A stretch of DNA of 64,000 bases. Source: Chitinophaga pinensis (lineage in GTDB: Bacteria > Bacteroidota > Bacteroidia > NS11-12g > UBA955). Made by a program: the position numbers and the translations under genes. This document shows, one piece after another, positions 1 to 5,042 of this stretch (positions are counted from its first letter, which is position 1; the number at the start of each line of letters is the position of its first letter). A model generated the notes under the pieces. The model did not search any database. It was not told the origin of the DNA and was given only the letters and a program-made list of their open reading frames with translations. The stretch spans positions 260,936-324,935 of the forward strand of contig CAMBXL010000002.1 in NCBI GenBank assembly GCA_945871905.1. The letters are read 5' to 3'.

Positions 1-3000
1 AATTAGAAGGTTCAACTAATCCCCGTTATTTAGAATGGACTAATTATAATGCAAGCAAAAATAGACCAATTATTTATGACTTTACAAGTGGTTACAGAGT
101 TAGAGGTGAAAAATATGGCAGTGACAATGTTAGAATAATATTACCATCTGGAAATGCCTCAAATTACTACCTAACAGACAGTACTGATATTACTTTTTTG
201 ACCGCTAATCAAATTAAGCCAGGAATAAGTTATGAATCGATAGATGACAATAGTTTTGTAGTTTTCGATTCACGTCAATGGGTTAATAAAAACAAATTCC
301 TGATGATTACCAACAATTCAATTGTAGGTAAATATACAGGAGATTTTATTCAATATAAAAGAACAATAACCAATACGAGTCCTGCGGATTTAGTAACCGT
401 TCAGCAGCTATACGACCATTTCTCATACGGAGTACCACATCCATTGGCTATTCGTAATTTTCTTAGATTTTTAGCGGAGAGTGGTGACACAACCTTAAAA
501 TTTGTATTTTTAGTTGGCCGTGGTTATCAAACAGATTATATTAGACCAGCCAACAGATTAAGAGATAATATTGTTCCATCCATTGGTGTTCCTGCCTCAG
601 ATAATATGTTTGCCACCTCTATACTTGGTTCAAATTTATCACCATATTTTGCAATAGGTAGATTAACGATAGACCGAGCCGTACAATTGGGGATTTATTT
701 AAACAAAGTCAAAGATTTTGATGCTAATTCAAATGAAATATGGAAAAAGCATAATTTGCATCTTGCGGGAGGAGAAGACGGATCACAAGCACTTAATTTT
801 ACAAACCGTTTAAACAGTCACGCCAATTTTGTGAAAGCTCAACCCTTTGGTGGATGGGTGACCACTTATACCAAGTCAAGTGTTGGAATAAGTGAGCCAT
901 TTTTAAAGCAAAAAGCAATAGATGTTGTATGTAAGCCCGAAGGTAATGGCGTTCAATTTGTAACGTTCTTAGGGCATGGTAGTGCGAATGTTGCCGATGT
1001 GGATATTGGTGACACATTAGAGTATTATAACAAAAACAAATATCCTATTTTTTACTTCAATGGTTGTAGCATAGGTAATCCATGTATTGGACCACCCAAC
1101 AAGAATGTTAGATTATCAGGCGAGCGGTTTATAAACGCTAAAGACAAGGGAGCAATTGCTTTTATTGGACAAACTGCCTTATCAGAATTAAATCACGTAG
1201 ACAGGCAAAATCGAGAATTATACCGATTGATATATTCGAGTAAATACAATGGAAATTATACGATTGGGGAAGCCATCAAAGACATGTTGGGTGTAACTGG
1301 AATAATCTCAAATGAGTTAAACAGTATTCAATCAAGAATATTATTTTTACAGGGGGATCCTTCATTAAGACTTTATCAACCTTCAATCCCTGATTATGAA
1401 ATTTCCGACAAATCTGTTTTTCTATATCCTGAGGATTACAGCGCTGTTGCAGATTCGTTTGCGGTAGCTGTTCCAATAACCAATAAGGGGAAATATGTTT
1501 CAGACTCAATTTCTATAAGAATAGACAGAAGTTATCCAAATAATTTTATAGAAAAAACATACTTTTTCAAAGTTAAGAGTATAGCGAATACAGATACTGT
1601 TTATTTGTATATTAAATCAAAAGATGCAGCGAGTGCGGGAATTAATAAGTTTACCATAACTATAAATGACGATTTCGCTATTACCGAAAACAACTATACC
1701 AATAACAGGGCAATCATTTATCCGTTTATTCCAGGTAATGGGGTCAATTTGATATACCCAAAACGTTATGACATAGTTTCAAGACTGAATAATGACAGTG
1801 TAACATTAGTGGCTCAGGCATTAAATATTTTTGAGCAAAACTATCAGTTTGTCTTTGAGATAGACACATCACATTTATTCAATAGTCCATGGAAAAAAGC
1901 GGACAGTTCTTCTTCAATCATTGGTCACTTAAGAAATTGGAAAGTCAAGCTAATGGGCAATAGAGACAGTATTGTTTATTATTGGAGAGGGAGAATAAAT
2001 ACAGGAAGTATTCAAGGTGGGTTATGGACAGAGCGTAGTTTTATCCATATTTTGGACAACGAAGCAGGTTGGTCACAGTCACACTTTCCTCAATTTTATC
2101 CAACGAGTTCATTGTTCAGGGTAGCTTTAAATCAAGACCTAAGGAAGTTTGAATTTTCGCATACATCAGAAAAGGTTTTTGTTACAACTGCTCTTCCAAA
2201 ATTCCCAAACTTCGGTATTAAAAAAGGTGGTTATGCCTCTAGGTCGCTCAATCCTGGGACTAATGCTGGGATATTAATTGTATTATTTGAAAAAAATAGC
2301 TTAGAACATATCAGGCTGAATAAAATTTTCAATGTAAACAAATATTATTACGATGGAATAAATTACGATTATTATGAAAAGTTAGTAAAAGCCTACAATT
2401 TTTTTGATGGAGATCCTAATCAAATGAATATGTTTAATGAGTTTATTGATTCTATTCCTGATGAAACCTATGTTGCAATTTGTAATGTAGAGAGAACAAA
2501 TAGAAAAACCTGGACTGAAGCTACTAAAGCTTCATTTCGAAAAATAGGATCTAAAATAGTTGATAGCTTTTATTCTAATAATACTTCTTACGCAATGATT
2601 GGTAAAAAAGGAGCTCCTCCAGGATGGGCAACGGAAGATACAGGCCACTACTATAGTTATGATAATGATCTAAGTCTTATCGAAATAGAGAAGGAAATGA
2701 TCGGTAAAAGAAACAAAGGGAGTCTCTCTAGCGAATTAATTGGACCAACTTCTGAATGGGGCGCCCTCCACTTCTGGACAAAAAATGAAGAATCCATTTC
2801 TCAAGATTTATTCAATATAGAAATTCATGGCATCAGTAACTCAAATAATGATACCATCTTGTTTTCTAATGTAACAAGTAGTCCGTTTGACCTCAGTTCT
2901 ATTGATGCTAGCCAATTTCCTTCAATATACCTCAAAGCCAATTTTGAAGATACAAAAAACTATACGCCACCTCAATTAATGCATTGGCGAGTAACCAATA

Positions 3001-4130
3001 AGGAGGTGCCCGAAGGAACGCTTAACCCAACCTTAACTAGTAATGTTTGGAGAGATACTCTTAATCAAGGTGAAGCATTCAATTATGAAATTGCGTTCCA
3101 AAATATCTCTAAACTGCCATTTAATAAAAACCTACAATATGAGGTAACTATTTTTAATATTGATAGCAAAGATACTGTTTTCAATTCTGTAAGATTATAT
3201 AATGACAGCCTAAAGCCTAATCAATTCTTTAAAATTGGGGCATCCCTTAATACTAAGAAATTGAAAGGTAGATACGCCTATGCAGTTAAAGTTAATTTTG
3301 ATATTTTAAATAAACCTATTCAATCGGAATTAACCATGACTAATAACTCTGCGGTTAGATATTTTTATGTTGAAGAAGACAGAATTAATCCACTTCTTGA
3401 TGTGACTTTCGACGGAAGACATATCGCGAATGGTGAAATAGTTTCAGCTAACCCTATTATTACTATTTCAAGTAAAGATGAAAATAAACTAAATTGGCAA
3501 ACAGATACAGCCGGTATTATTATTTGGATGAAAAGACCAAATGAAACTGACTTTAAACTGATTGATTTTGACAGTTTTGGGGTTAAATATTTCCCTGCAA
3601 CTTCTGCATACAATCAAGCCAAAGCAATCTTTTCGCCGCAAAATCTAGAAGATGGCATTTACACGCTAAAAATACAATCTAGAGATGCCAACGGAACTGC
3701 TGCAGGTACCAGCGAATACCTTATCAACTTTGTGGTAATTAATCAAGCTAGTACAACTAATTTTTACCCTTATCCTAATCCATTTACAACCCAAATGAAG
3801 TTTGTTTTCACGCTAACTGGAAAGGAAATTCCTGATTACATAAATATTAAAATCATGACCATTCAAGGAAAAGTTATTAAAGAACTTAATAAGGACGATT
3901 TGGGTGACATTAGAATTGGTAACAATATTACTGATGTTGTTTGGGATGGAACCGATACTTATGGCGACAGGCTCTCTAACGGTGTTTATTTGTATACTGT
4001 AACTATTAAAACTAATGGTGAAGAATTGTCTCAATTGGAAAACGATAATTTGAGTAATCAATTAAATGCAGACAAAGCAAACAATAAATTATTTAAACAT
4101 TCCGTTGGTAAAATAGTCTTACTGAGATAA
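1..4130 (+). CDS. C25 (gingipain-like) cysteine peptidase with ILEI/FAM3-like domain and T9SS sorting domain, PorU2-like; 5' truncated
   Basis: The frame is open from base 3, so the true start lies left of the window; the first start-like codon (TTG 198) is internal. About 1,375 residues are visible. The C25 caspase-like domain covers roughly bases 350-1390, with catalytic His in FLGHGS (codon 975-977), Cys in FNGCS (codon 1065-1067) and the family's closing GDPSLRLY (1353-1376). Ig/CARDB-like beta-rich sequence follows. Bases about 2260-2640 resemble the ILEI/PANDER (FAM3) fold, with an IPDETYV segment and IGKKGAPPG. The end (3750-4130) is a FlgD-like/T9SS type A C-terminal domain with PYPNPF, WDGTD and SNGVYLY motifs and terminal GKIVLLR. 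By family it should be exported through the outer membrane by the T9SS, probably as a surface peptidase or accessory sortase (PorU2 type) rather than PorU itself. The lytic transglycosylase gene begins 12 bases downstream. Confidence 0.88.
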   Translation, partial: LEGSTNPRYLEWTNYNASKNRPIIYDFTSGYRVRGEKYGSDNVRIILPSGNASNYYLTDSTDITFLTANQIKPGISYESIDDNSFVVFDSRQWVNKNKFLMITNNSIVGKYTGDFIQYKRTITNTSPADLVTVQQLYDHFSYGVPHPLAIRNFLRFLAESGDTTLKFVFLVGRGYQTDYIRPANRLRDNIVPSIGVPASDNMFATSILGSNLSPYFAIGRLTIDRAVQLGIYLNKVKDFDANSNEIWKKHNLHLAGGEDGSQALNFTNRLNSHANFVKAQPFGGWVTTYTKSSVGISEPFLKQKAIDVVCKPEGNGVQFVTFLGHGSANVADVDIGDTLEYYNKNKYPIFYFNGCSIGNPCIGPPNKNVRLSGERFINAKDKGAIAFIGQTALSELNHVDRQNRELYRLIYSSKYNGNYTIGEAIKDMLGVTGIISNELNSIQSRILFLQGDPSLRLYQPSIPDYEISDKSVFLYPEDYSAVADSFAVAVPITNKGKYVSDSISIRIDRSYPNNFIEKTYFFKVKSIANTDTVYLYIKSKDAASAGINKFTITINDDFAITENNYTNNRAIIYPFIPGNGVNLIYPKRYDIVSRLNNDSVTLVAQALNIFEQNYQFVFEIDTSHLFNSPWKKADSSSSIIGHLRNWKVKLMGNRDSIVYYWRGRINTGSIQGGLWTERSFIHILDNEAGWSQSHFPQFYPTSSLFRVALNQDLRKFEFSHTSEKVFVTTALPKFPNFGIKKGGYASRSLNPGTNAGILIVLFEKNSLEHIRLNKIFNVNKYYYDGINYDYYEKLVKAYNFFDGDPNQMNMFNEFIDSIPDETYVAICNVERTNRKTWTEATKASFRKIGSKIVDSFYSNNTSYAMIGKKGAPPGWATEDTGHYYSYDNDLSLIEIEKEMIGKRNKGSLSSELIGPTSEWGALHFWTKNEESISQDLFNIEIHGISNSNNDTILFSNVTSSPFDLSSIDASQFPSIYLKANFEDTKNYTPPQLMHWRVTNKEVPEGTLNPTLTSNVWRDTLNQGEAFNYEIAFQNISKLPFNKNLQYEVTIFNIDSKDTVFNSVRLYNDSLKPNQFFKIGASLNTKKLKGRYAYAVKVNFDILNKPIQSELTMTNNSAVRYFYVEEDRINPLLDVTFDGRHIANGEIVSANPIITISSKDENKLNWQTDTAGIIIWMKRPNETDFKLIDFDSFGVKYFPATSAYNQAKAIFSPQNLEDGIYTLKIQSRDANGTAAGTSEYLINFVVINQASTTNFYPYPNPFTTQMKFVFTLTGKEIPDYINIKIMTIQGKVIKELNKDDLGDIRIGNNITDVVWDGTDTYGDRLSNGVYLYTVTIKTNGEELSQLENDNLSNQLNADKANNKLFKHSVGKIVLLR

Positions 4131-4142
4131 TTACAACAATTT

Positions 4143-5042
4143 ATGAAATTCACTTCTCCTTTATTCCTTTTGGCTTTTTTATTAATGGGATTTAATAATC
4201 CTAATATTACCAACGCAACTTATAAAAGCTCAGTTGATTACATGTATGAACTACAATTAAATCAACTACCTCAAGTTATCTTTTGGAGAAAAATTATGAA
4301 TCTTCATCACGACAGTTGTCTTGTTAATATTCATAAAGAGAGAAAAATCTTAACCACCGCTTCTTACCTTAATTGGACTTCTTTACCTATTGATATTAAA
4401 GCACAAGTTTTGGATAGTTTCCGTAGATTAAACGGTTATTTAGATTCTCCCAAAATTGTTGGTACACAAGGGAAAAAGTTTTTTTATGCCTTTGAAAAAA
4501 TTGCGCCTAAAGTGCCCGACGGAATGAAACAATTTGAATTAAATGGGGTTGATCCTTGGTATGCTAAAGCCATCCTTTTAATTGAAAGTCCTAACCAATT
4601 ACAAAAATCAACTGCAGGTGCTTATGGCCCTTTCCAATTAATGCCTTATGTTGCTCGTCAATATGGACTTAAAGTTAATAAATATACAGACGAACGTGCC
4701 AATTTCAACCGCTCTGCTTATGCCGCTAGTCAGTTAATCAAAAATATTTGTATCCCTTATGCCAAATCAATGCTCTTGGAAATTGGCGTTGAATCAATAG
4801 ATGAGGATGATTTATGGTTTAAACTTTTTGTTATGCATGTTTATAATGCTGGAGCAGGAACTTTAAAAACGGCACTCAAATCTATCCCAGAGCCTAAAAA
4901 AGAAATGGAGCTTATAACCCAATTGTGGCAAACTAATGCAGGAAGATTTCAATCTTCTTCGCAAAATTACAGCCAACTTATTTTAGCTGCTTTTTTTGAG
5001 TACGACGACAGAATTGAACGCTTAAATACTAGCAGTAATTAA
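4143..5042 (+). CDS. Lytic transglycosylase, SLT family 1
   Basis: A 299-residue exported enzyme expected to cleave the MurNAc-GlcNAc bond of peptidoglycan, leaving 1,6-anhydro ends. The N-terminus is a signal peptide (MKFTSPLFLLAFLL, probable cleavage near residue 25). The SLT core is in the second half: catalytic Glu in LLIESPNQ (codon 4584-4586, about residue 148), the GAYGPFQLMP motif, and VYNAGAG near residue 240. The gene starts 12 bases after the C25 peptidase stop and is probably co-transcribed with it. Its TAA shares the palindrome TTAA with the stop of the convergent phosphatase gene. No LysM or other wall-binding domain is seen. Confidence 0.9.
   Translation: MKFTSPLFLLAFLLMGFNNPNITNATYKSSVDYMYELQLNQLPQVIFWRKIMNLHHDSCLVNIHKERKILTTASYLNWTSLPIDIKAQVLDSFRRLNGYLDSPKIVGTQGKKFFYAFEKIAPKVPDGMKQFELNGVDPWYAKAILLIESPNQLQKSTAGAYGPFQLMPYVARQYGLKVNKYTDERANFNRSAYAASQLIKNICIPYAKSMLLEIGVESIDEDDLWFKLFVMHVYNAGAGTLKTALKSIPEPKKEMELITQLWQTNAGRFQSSSQNYSQLILAAFFEYDDRIERLNTSSN

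Follow-up and report, generated by a model that had tools for sequence, protein, structure and literature searches.

A segment of a bacterial surface peptidase that resembles the FAM3/ILEI proteins raises the question of whether the resemblance is genuine, and of what such a domain would do in a protein of the type IX secretion system (T9SS). The FAM3/ILEI family is named after vertebrate cytokine-like proteins, and the FAM3 proteins are small, free and secreted. The window analysed here is a stretch of 64,000 nt from Chitinophaga pinensis (assembly GCA_945871905.1, contig CAMBXL010000002.1, positions 260,936-324,935, forward strand). An earlier note made from the letters of the window had proposed an ILEI/FAM3 domain inside a C25 peptidase, with carbohydrate binding or recognition as its possible use. 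By computation, the protein was identified as PorU2, a paralogue of the T9SS sortase PorU with a C25 peptidase domain, and a genuine FAM3/ILEI domain was shown to be a fixed part of it. Nothing in the analysis supports a host-directed or cytokine-like role.

Architecture of PorU2 and identity of its FAM3/ILEI domain

The window holds the 3' part of the PorU2 gene (Table 1). The first 334 residues are encoded upstream of it, the gene starts at L031:5937, and the N-terminus is signal-peptide-like (MRKLLFLVLFLVCTSPMFSQ). The window protein scored 598.4 bits against the NCBIfam model NF052324, 'putative type IX secretion system sortase PorU2' (cut-off 450), which bears out the earlier guess of a PorU2-type annotation; against the PorU model NF033707 it scored 176.4 bits and failed the cut-off of 420. 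Since NF052324 extends only to residue 902, the ILEI domain further along the protein is no part of its definition.

Table 1. Position of PorU2, its domains and the adjacent gene in the window
Feature	Window position	Residues	Strand	Basis
PorU2 gene, 3' part	3..4130	335-1709 of 1709	+	ORF; NCBIfam NF052324
Peptidase C25 (gingipain-like) catalytic domain	303..1373	435-791	+	Pfam PF01364, E 1.6e-48
Catalytic dyad, His	975-977	His659	+	C25 alignment
Catalytic dyad, Cys	1065-1067	Cys689	+	C25 alignment
PorU2-specific middle region with ILEI domain	1500..3374	~834-1458	+	blastp against PorU L112
Complete FAM3/ILEI (POMGnT1-stem-like) domain	2250..2730 (about)		+	Profile and predicted fold
Pfam ILEI core	2379-2615 (G000:C2:263314-263550)	1127-1205	+	PF15711
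C-terminal domain, T9SS type A sorting pattern	3756..4127		+	Weak Por_Secre_tail/FlgD_ig matches; conservation
SLT lytic transglycosylase gene	4143-5042		+	

The catalytic His659 and Cys689 are invariant in all 81 class relatives of the alignment, and both are kept in each of the 39 ILEI proteins collected from other Bacteroidota classes (40/40 with the window protein included). Foldseek on a larger predicted model (pTM 0.63), informative for the C25 part only, gave the RgpB gingipain as top match (E 4e-19). The C-terminal domain (CTD) carries the type A pattern PNPF...WDGTDTYGDRLSNGVYLY...GKIVLLR, of which the motif and the final GKIVLLR are strongly conserved among the relatives; taken alone it stays under the Pfam cut-off of 27, with 17.4 bits for Por_Secre_tail and 21.0 for FlgD_ig. 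Mean conservation across PorU2 in the class alignment was highest in the CTD (0.55), followed by C25 (0.41), and lowest in the ILEI region (0.28). The ILEI segment lies between the C25 domain and the CTD, as the earlier note had placed it, and the motifs named there (SIPDETYV, KASFRKIGSK and IGKKGAPPG) are present in the sequence. Directly downstream of PorU2 stands a gene for an SLT lytic transglycosylase. The nearest relatives, L032-L035, belong to a lineage without an upstream PorV2 gene, and all four have a homologue of the transglycosylase gene 0-8 bp after PorU2.

The identity of the domain was examined by profile and by predicted structure. Pfam ILEI (PF15711) matched the full protein with 36.5 bits against a curated cut-off of 27 (E 7e-9), and the genome search gave 40.9 bits (E 5.4e-10) as the sole ILEI match genome-wide. 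The complete domain exceeds the Pfam match, taking in the hairpin AGILIVLFE at its N-terminus and a final strand that follows KKG. The AlphaFold model of the segment, with 81 aligned relatives as input, reached a pLDDT of 84.8 and a pTM of 0.82, and the FAM3 beta-beta-alpha fold is found in this predicted structure. Foldseek against the PDB returned 21 matches at E<=0.001, every one of them the POMGnT1 stem, FAM3A/B/C or TMEM2. The POMGnT1 stem ranked first, with E 3e-7 and a TM-score of 0.81 relative to the target, and at rank 22 the E-value falls to 0.18. A plain Ig-like fold, which the earlier note had named as an outcome that would refute its reading, was not obtained. The sequence profile of the segment, searched against all PDB sequences, found no entries at E<=1 other than FAM3C, FAM3B, POMGnT1 and FAM3A; profiles were needed, as phmmer with the single sequence of the segment gave no PDB match. 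The structural matches share merely ~10-17% sequence identity. Despite this, the exclusive fold matches together with the independent profile matches make the identification, by sequence and model, secure.

Distribution of the domain and its sugar-contact residues

The survey of architectures covered 80 named PorU2 relatives from Pedobacter, Fulvivirga, Rufibacter, Pontibacter, Hymenobacter, Thermoflavifilum and many MAGs. The alignment revealed the ILEI segment in all 80, and the idea that it is a variable add-on of some PorU2 proteins was rejected. Pfam ILEI matched 55 of 81 segments at E<=0.1, the gaps being due to the sensitivity of the Pfam model. Among 395 genomes of class Bacteroidia, PorU2 scored above cut-off in 273, PorU in 361 and PorV2 in 310. 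When PorU2 was compared by blastp with PorU L112, taken from a genome lacking PorU2, only residues 20-100, 464-833 and 1459-1671 matched. The middle region of PorU2 had no counterpart there, and the ILEI profile likewise found no match in this PorU, the sole one examined. ILEI-domain proteins without C25 also occur in the class (L024:19-2040, with two ILEI stretches, L012 and L030). Tandem or paired PorU2 paralogues within one genome were seen in L081, L082, L137, G188, G229 and G278. The contig that bears one PorV2-PorU2 pair (L106) carries the label of a Verrucomicrobia MAG and is probably misbinned Bacteroidota.

The POMGnT1 stem contacts GlcNAc through Arg129, Asp179 and Arg207, and sugar binding is also known for FAM3C and FAM3A (PMC9802357). 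These three residues were mapped onto the bacterial domains by shared motifs, namely the RG before the first long strand, the D in D-E/D-G and the R in FRxSW; in FAM3B the three positions are 50 and 28 residues apart, as they are by the numbering of POMGnT1. With identity so low, the mappings of R129 and D179 are less certain than that of R207. In class Bacteroidia the equivalent of R129 is R in 3/81 segments, that of D179 is D in 4/81 and that of R207 is R in 1/81. The window domain has A, R and N at the three positions and so lacks a POMGnT1-type site.

The domains of other Bacteroidota classes gave a different result. This set comprises 39 proteins with 41 ILEI copies, mostly in ORFs of 1500-1950 aa, and ILEI matches outside the class are much stronger, reaching 85.7 bits. 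Its domain profile matched FAM3B (5.5e-23), FAM3C (2.1e-22), POMGnT1 (6.8e-21), FAM3A (1.8e-18) and TMEM2 (1.6e-15) in the PDB. Of the 41 copies, 18 retain R129, 25 retain D179 and 26 retain R207, while 15 keep all three. Five of these proteins scored between 428 and 201 bits against NF052324, all under the cut-off of 450; four were closer to the PorU2 model than to PorU and the fifth was about equal, and the group is called PorU2-like on this account. Two further arrangements were observed: a 600-aa protein from a Bacteroidota class other than Bacteroidia (L140:4749-6548), in which ILEI (E 5e-22) is fused to phosphatidylserine decarboxylase (E 1.2e-43), and a 2399-aa C25 protein carrying two ILEI copies (L122:166-7362).

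In a FastTree phylogeny of the C25 domain alone, the Bacteroidia sequences form one clade (100) beside six other-class sequences with 0-1 triad residues, and lineages with two or three triad residues fall outside Bacteroidia and this sister group. Given that human FAM3 and POMGnT1 share the triad, the simplest reading of the sequences is that the site is ancestral and disappeared in the line leading to Bacteroidia; alternatively, the FAM3-type domain may have been transferred between lineages. The carbohydrate-binding role put forward earlier thus stands in part. It is favoured by sugar binding in the POMGnT1 stem, FAM3A and FAM3C and by the contact residues kept in the other classes, and it is weakened for class Bacteroidia, where those residues are gone.

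The loss of the site allows the reading that the Bacteroidia domain is ligand-free and persists as a structural spacer separating the CTD from the catalytic part. The lowest conservation within PorU2 falls on the ILEI region, and the best-kept positions (P1153, Y1157, G1183 and K1203-G1204) resemble residues that hold the fold in the FAM3 family, both of which suit a spacer, as does the absence of POMGnT1-type residues from the class. The domain has nevertheless been retained in 80/80 relatives and never deleted, and a module recognising a variable glycan would also show low conservation. A new Cys pair argues in the same direction: the cysteines at alignment columns 79 and 173 are conserved jointly, with both present in 54 of 81 sequences, one in 3 and neither in 24, the window protein among the last. 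The pair would presumably form a disulfide. On balance a mere spacer appears somewhat unlikely.

PorV2 and the genomes without PorU and PorZ

A PorV-family gene stands directly upstream of PorU2 in ~55 of 80 loci, with a median overlap of 3 bp, and a representative of these proteins scored 458 bits against the PorV2 model NF052325 (cut-off 325). A by-eye tally of genomes (thresholds: best E <=1e-100 for PorU2 and <=1e-80 for PorV2) counted 263 with both, 18 with PorU2 only, 48 with PorV2 only and 66 with neither. PorV2 of the window organism scored 415 bits against 325 and lies on another contig (G000:C3), not adjacent to PorU2, and a conserved PorV2 operon was therefore rejected for this organism.

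The usual neighbourhood and the co-occurrence of PorV2 with PorU2 would also suit a domain that serves as a protein-protein docking surface, for PorV2 itself or for cargo. An attachment complex of PorU2 with PorV2, comparable to that of PorU with PorV, may exist. Against docking, the C25 proteins of other classes bear the domain with no adjacent PorV2 seen within ~1 kb upstream of their PorU2-like genes, and sugars are the ligands of the closest structural relatives for which a ligand is known. This explanation is considered improbable.

Four near-complete genomes (G035, G229, G278 and G381) gave only cross-matches for PorU, which is absent from them, though their PorU2 is strong. All four carry PorV2 and an ILEI-bearing PorU2 (E <=1e-29), and the PorZ profile search found no PorZ in any of the four. 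Two genomes that have PorU and belong to the family shared by three of the PorU-less ones do contain PorZ. Por_Secre_tail matches numbered 10, 48, 90 and 16, respectively. These genomes fit a role of PorU2/PorV2 as a sortase independent of PorU and PorZ and are no proof of it; the co-loss was seen in four genomes, of which three belong to a single family, and this small sample counts against the preferred explanation. PorZ was found in 125 of 139 genomes, with or without PorU2, and replacement of PorZ by PorU2 wherever it occurs was rejected. The window organism also encodes PorU and PorZ, so PorU2 would not be its sole sortase.

The same genomes bear on the possibility that PorU2 is a surface protease and not a sortase, its domain sticking to glycans of substrates or neighbouring cells. 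Family C25 includes plain proteases, the gingipains, with which the catalytic fold matches best, and 'sortase' is merely a putative name in NCBIfam. The kinship with PorU at the N-terminus, the C25 domain and the C-terminus, the pairing with a PorV-family protein, and the presence of PorU2 where PorU is missing yet T9SS cargo remains all speak against it, and a plain protease is very improbable. A false ILEI match over what is in fact an ordinary Ig-like domain, for which the low identity might be quoted, has a negligible chance in view of the score above the Pfam cut-off, the FAM3/POMGnT1/TMEM2-exclusive fold matches and a profile that finds FAM3 and POMGnT1 alone, and is refuted as far as computation goes.

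Proposed mechanism and comparison with known systems

The explanation preferred here is that PorU2 is a sortase working with PorV2, that its FAM3-type domain began as a glycan-acceptor module, and that it works without PorZ; taken jointly these parts come close to an even chance without reaching it. Counting against the explanation are also the lost sugar contacts and low conservation of the domain in the window's own class, the PorU and PorZ that the window organism encodes besides PorU2, and, in the other classes, PorU2 scores under the cut-off with no PorV2 seen in the ~1 kb upstream. PorU2 would be exported and kept at the cell surface with the PorV-like PorV2, where its His/Cys dyad would cut the sorting CTD off T9SS cargo and the enzyme would join the cargo to a surface glycan. 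In its original role, the FAM3-type domain would have kept this acceptor glycan, or the product once glycosylated, close to the catalytic domain, in the way that the stem of POMGnT1 presents sugar to the catalytic domain of that enzyme. PorZ binds A-LPS, which is then delivered to PorU (PMC8545088); a built-in glycan-acceptor module would free PorU2 from this supplier of LPS. In class Bacteroidia, including the window organism, the original contacts are lost, and the domain would either read a different, lineage-specific glycan or survive as a scaffold. Both the sortase activity and the sugar binding of PorU2 are inferred, and for the window protein's own domain a new ligand, a docking role or a structural role only may apply. 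The fuller version is speculative and rather unlikely to hold in every part: Bacteroidota would have a second T9SS sortase module in PorU2/PorV2, the place of PorZ would be taken by a FAM3/POMGnT1-type glycan-acceptor domain within the enzyme itself, and the site would be re-specialised in Bacteroidia.

If it is true, the FAM3 fold would be a glycan-acceptor module common to bacterial sortases and animal glycosyltransferases. That a bacterial sortase-like enzyme has a fixed FAM3 domain, and that its distant relatives keep the triad, suggests that the fold originally served to bind glycans, and bacterial PorU2 may offer a simple system for probing this. For secretion biology, the results suggest a second sortase module, PorU2/PorV2, which seems capable of handling T9SS cargo where PorU and PorZ are missing. 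The names PorU2 and PorV2 and the Pfam ILEI match are already in databases, hence this is not a new family. In the literature searched (subscription papers were outside its scope) no papers on PorU2 or PorV2 were found and no measured sortase activity or glycan binding for any PorU2; none tied ILEI to Bacteroidetes, the matches being ileitis and unrelated topics. The conservation of the triad, its loss, and the PorU2 genomes without PorU and PorZ appear to be new observations.

Compared with known systems, the window protein shares with PorU2 of NF052324 the length class (~1700 aa) and the C25 His/Cys, and the function of that family is putative in NCBIfam too. It is related to PorU (NF033707) in the N-terminus, the C25 domain and the C-terminal region, whereas PorU L112 is ~400 aa shorter and has no ILEI-bearing middle region. 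FAM3A/B/C (PANDER, ILEI) have the same fold and Pfam family as the window domain, but they are free small proteins while the window domain is internal to a T9SS protein of 1709 aa. The human POMGnT1 stem is its best structural match, and PorU2-like proteins of other classes often keep R129, D179 and R207; the stem is fused to a glycosyltransferase, whereas the window domain is fused to a peptidase and its class has lost the triad. PorZ (NF052228) is the carbohydrate-binding partner of the PorU sortase, and the same role is proposed for the ILEI domain of PorU2, with the difference that PorZ is a separate beta-propeller protein and the ILEI domain is built into PorU2.
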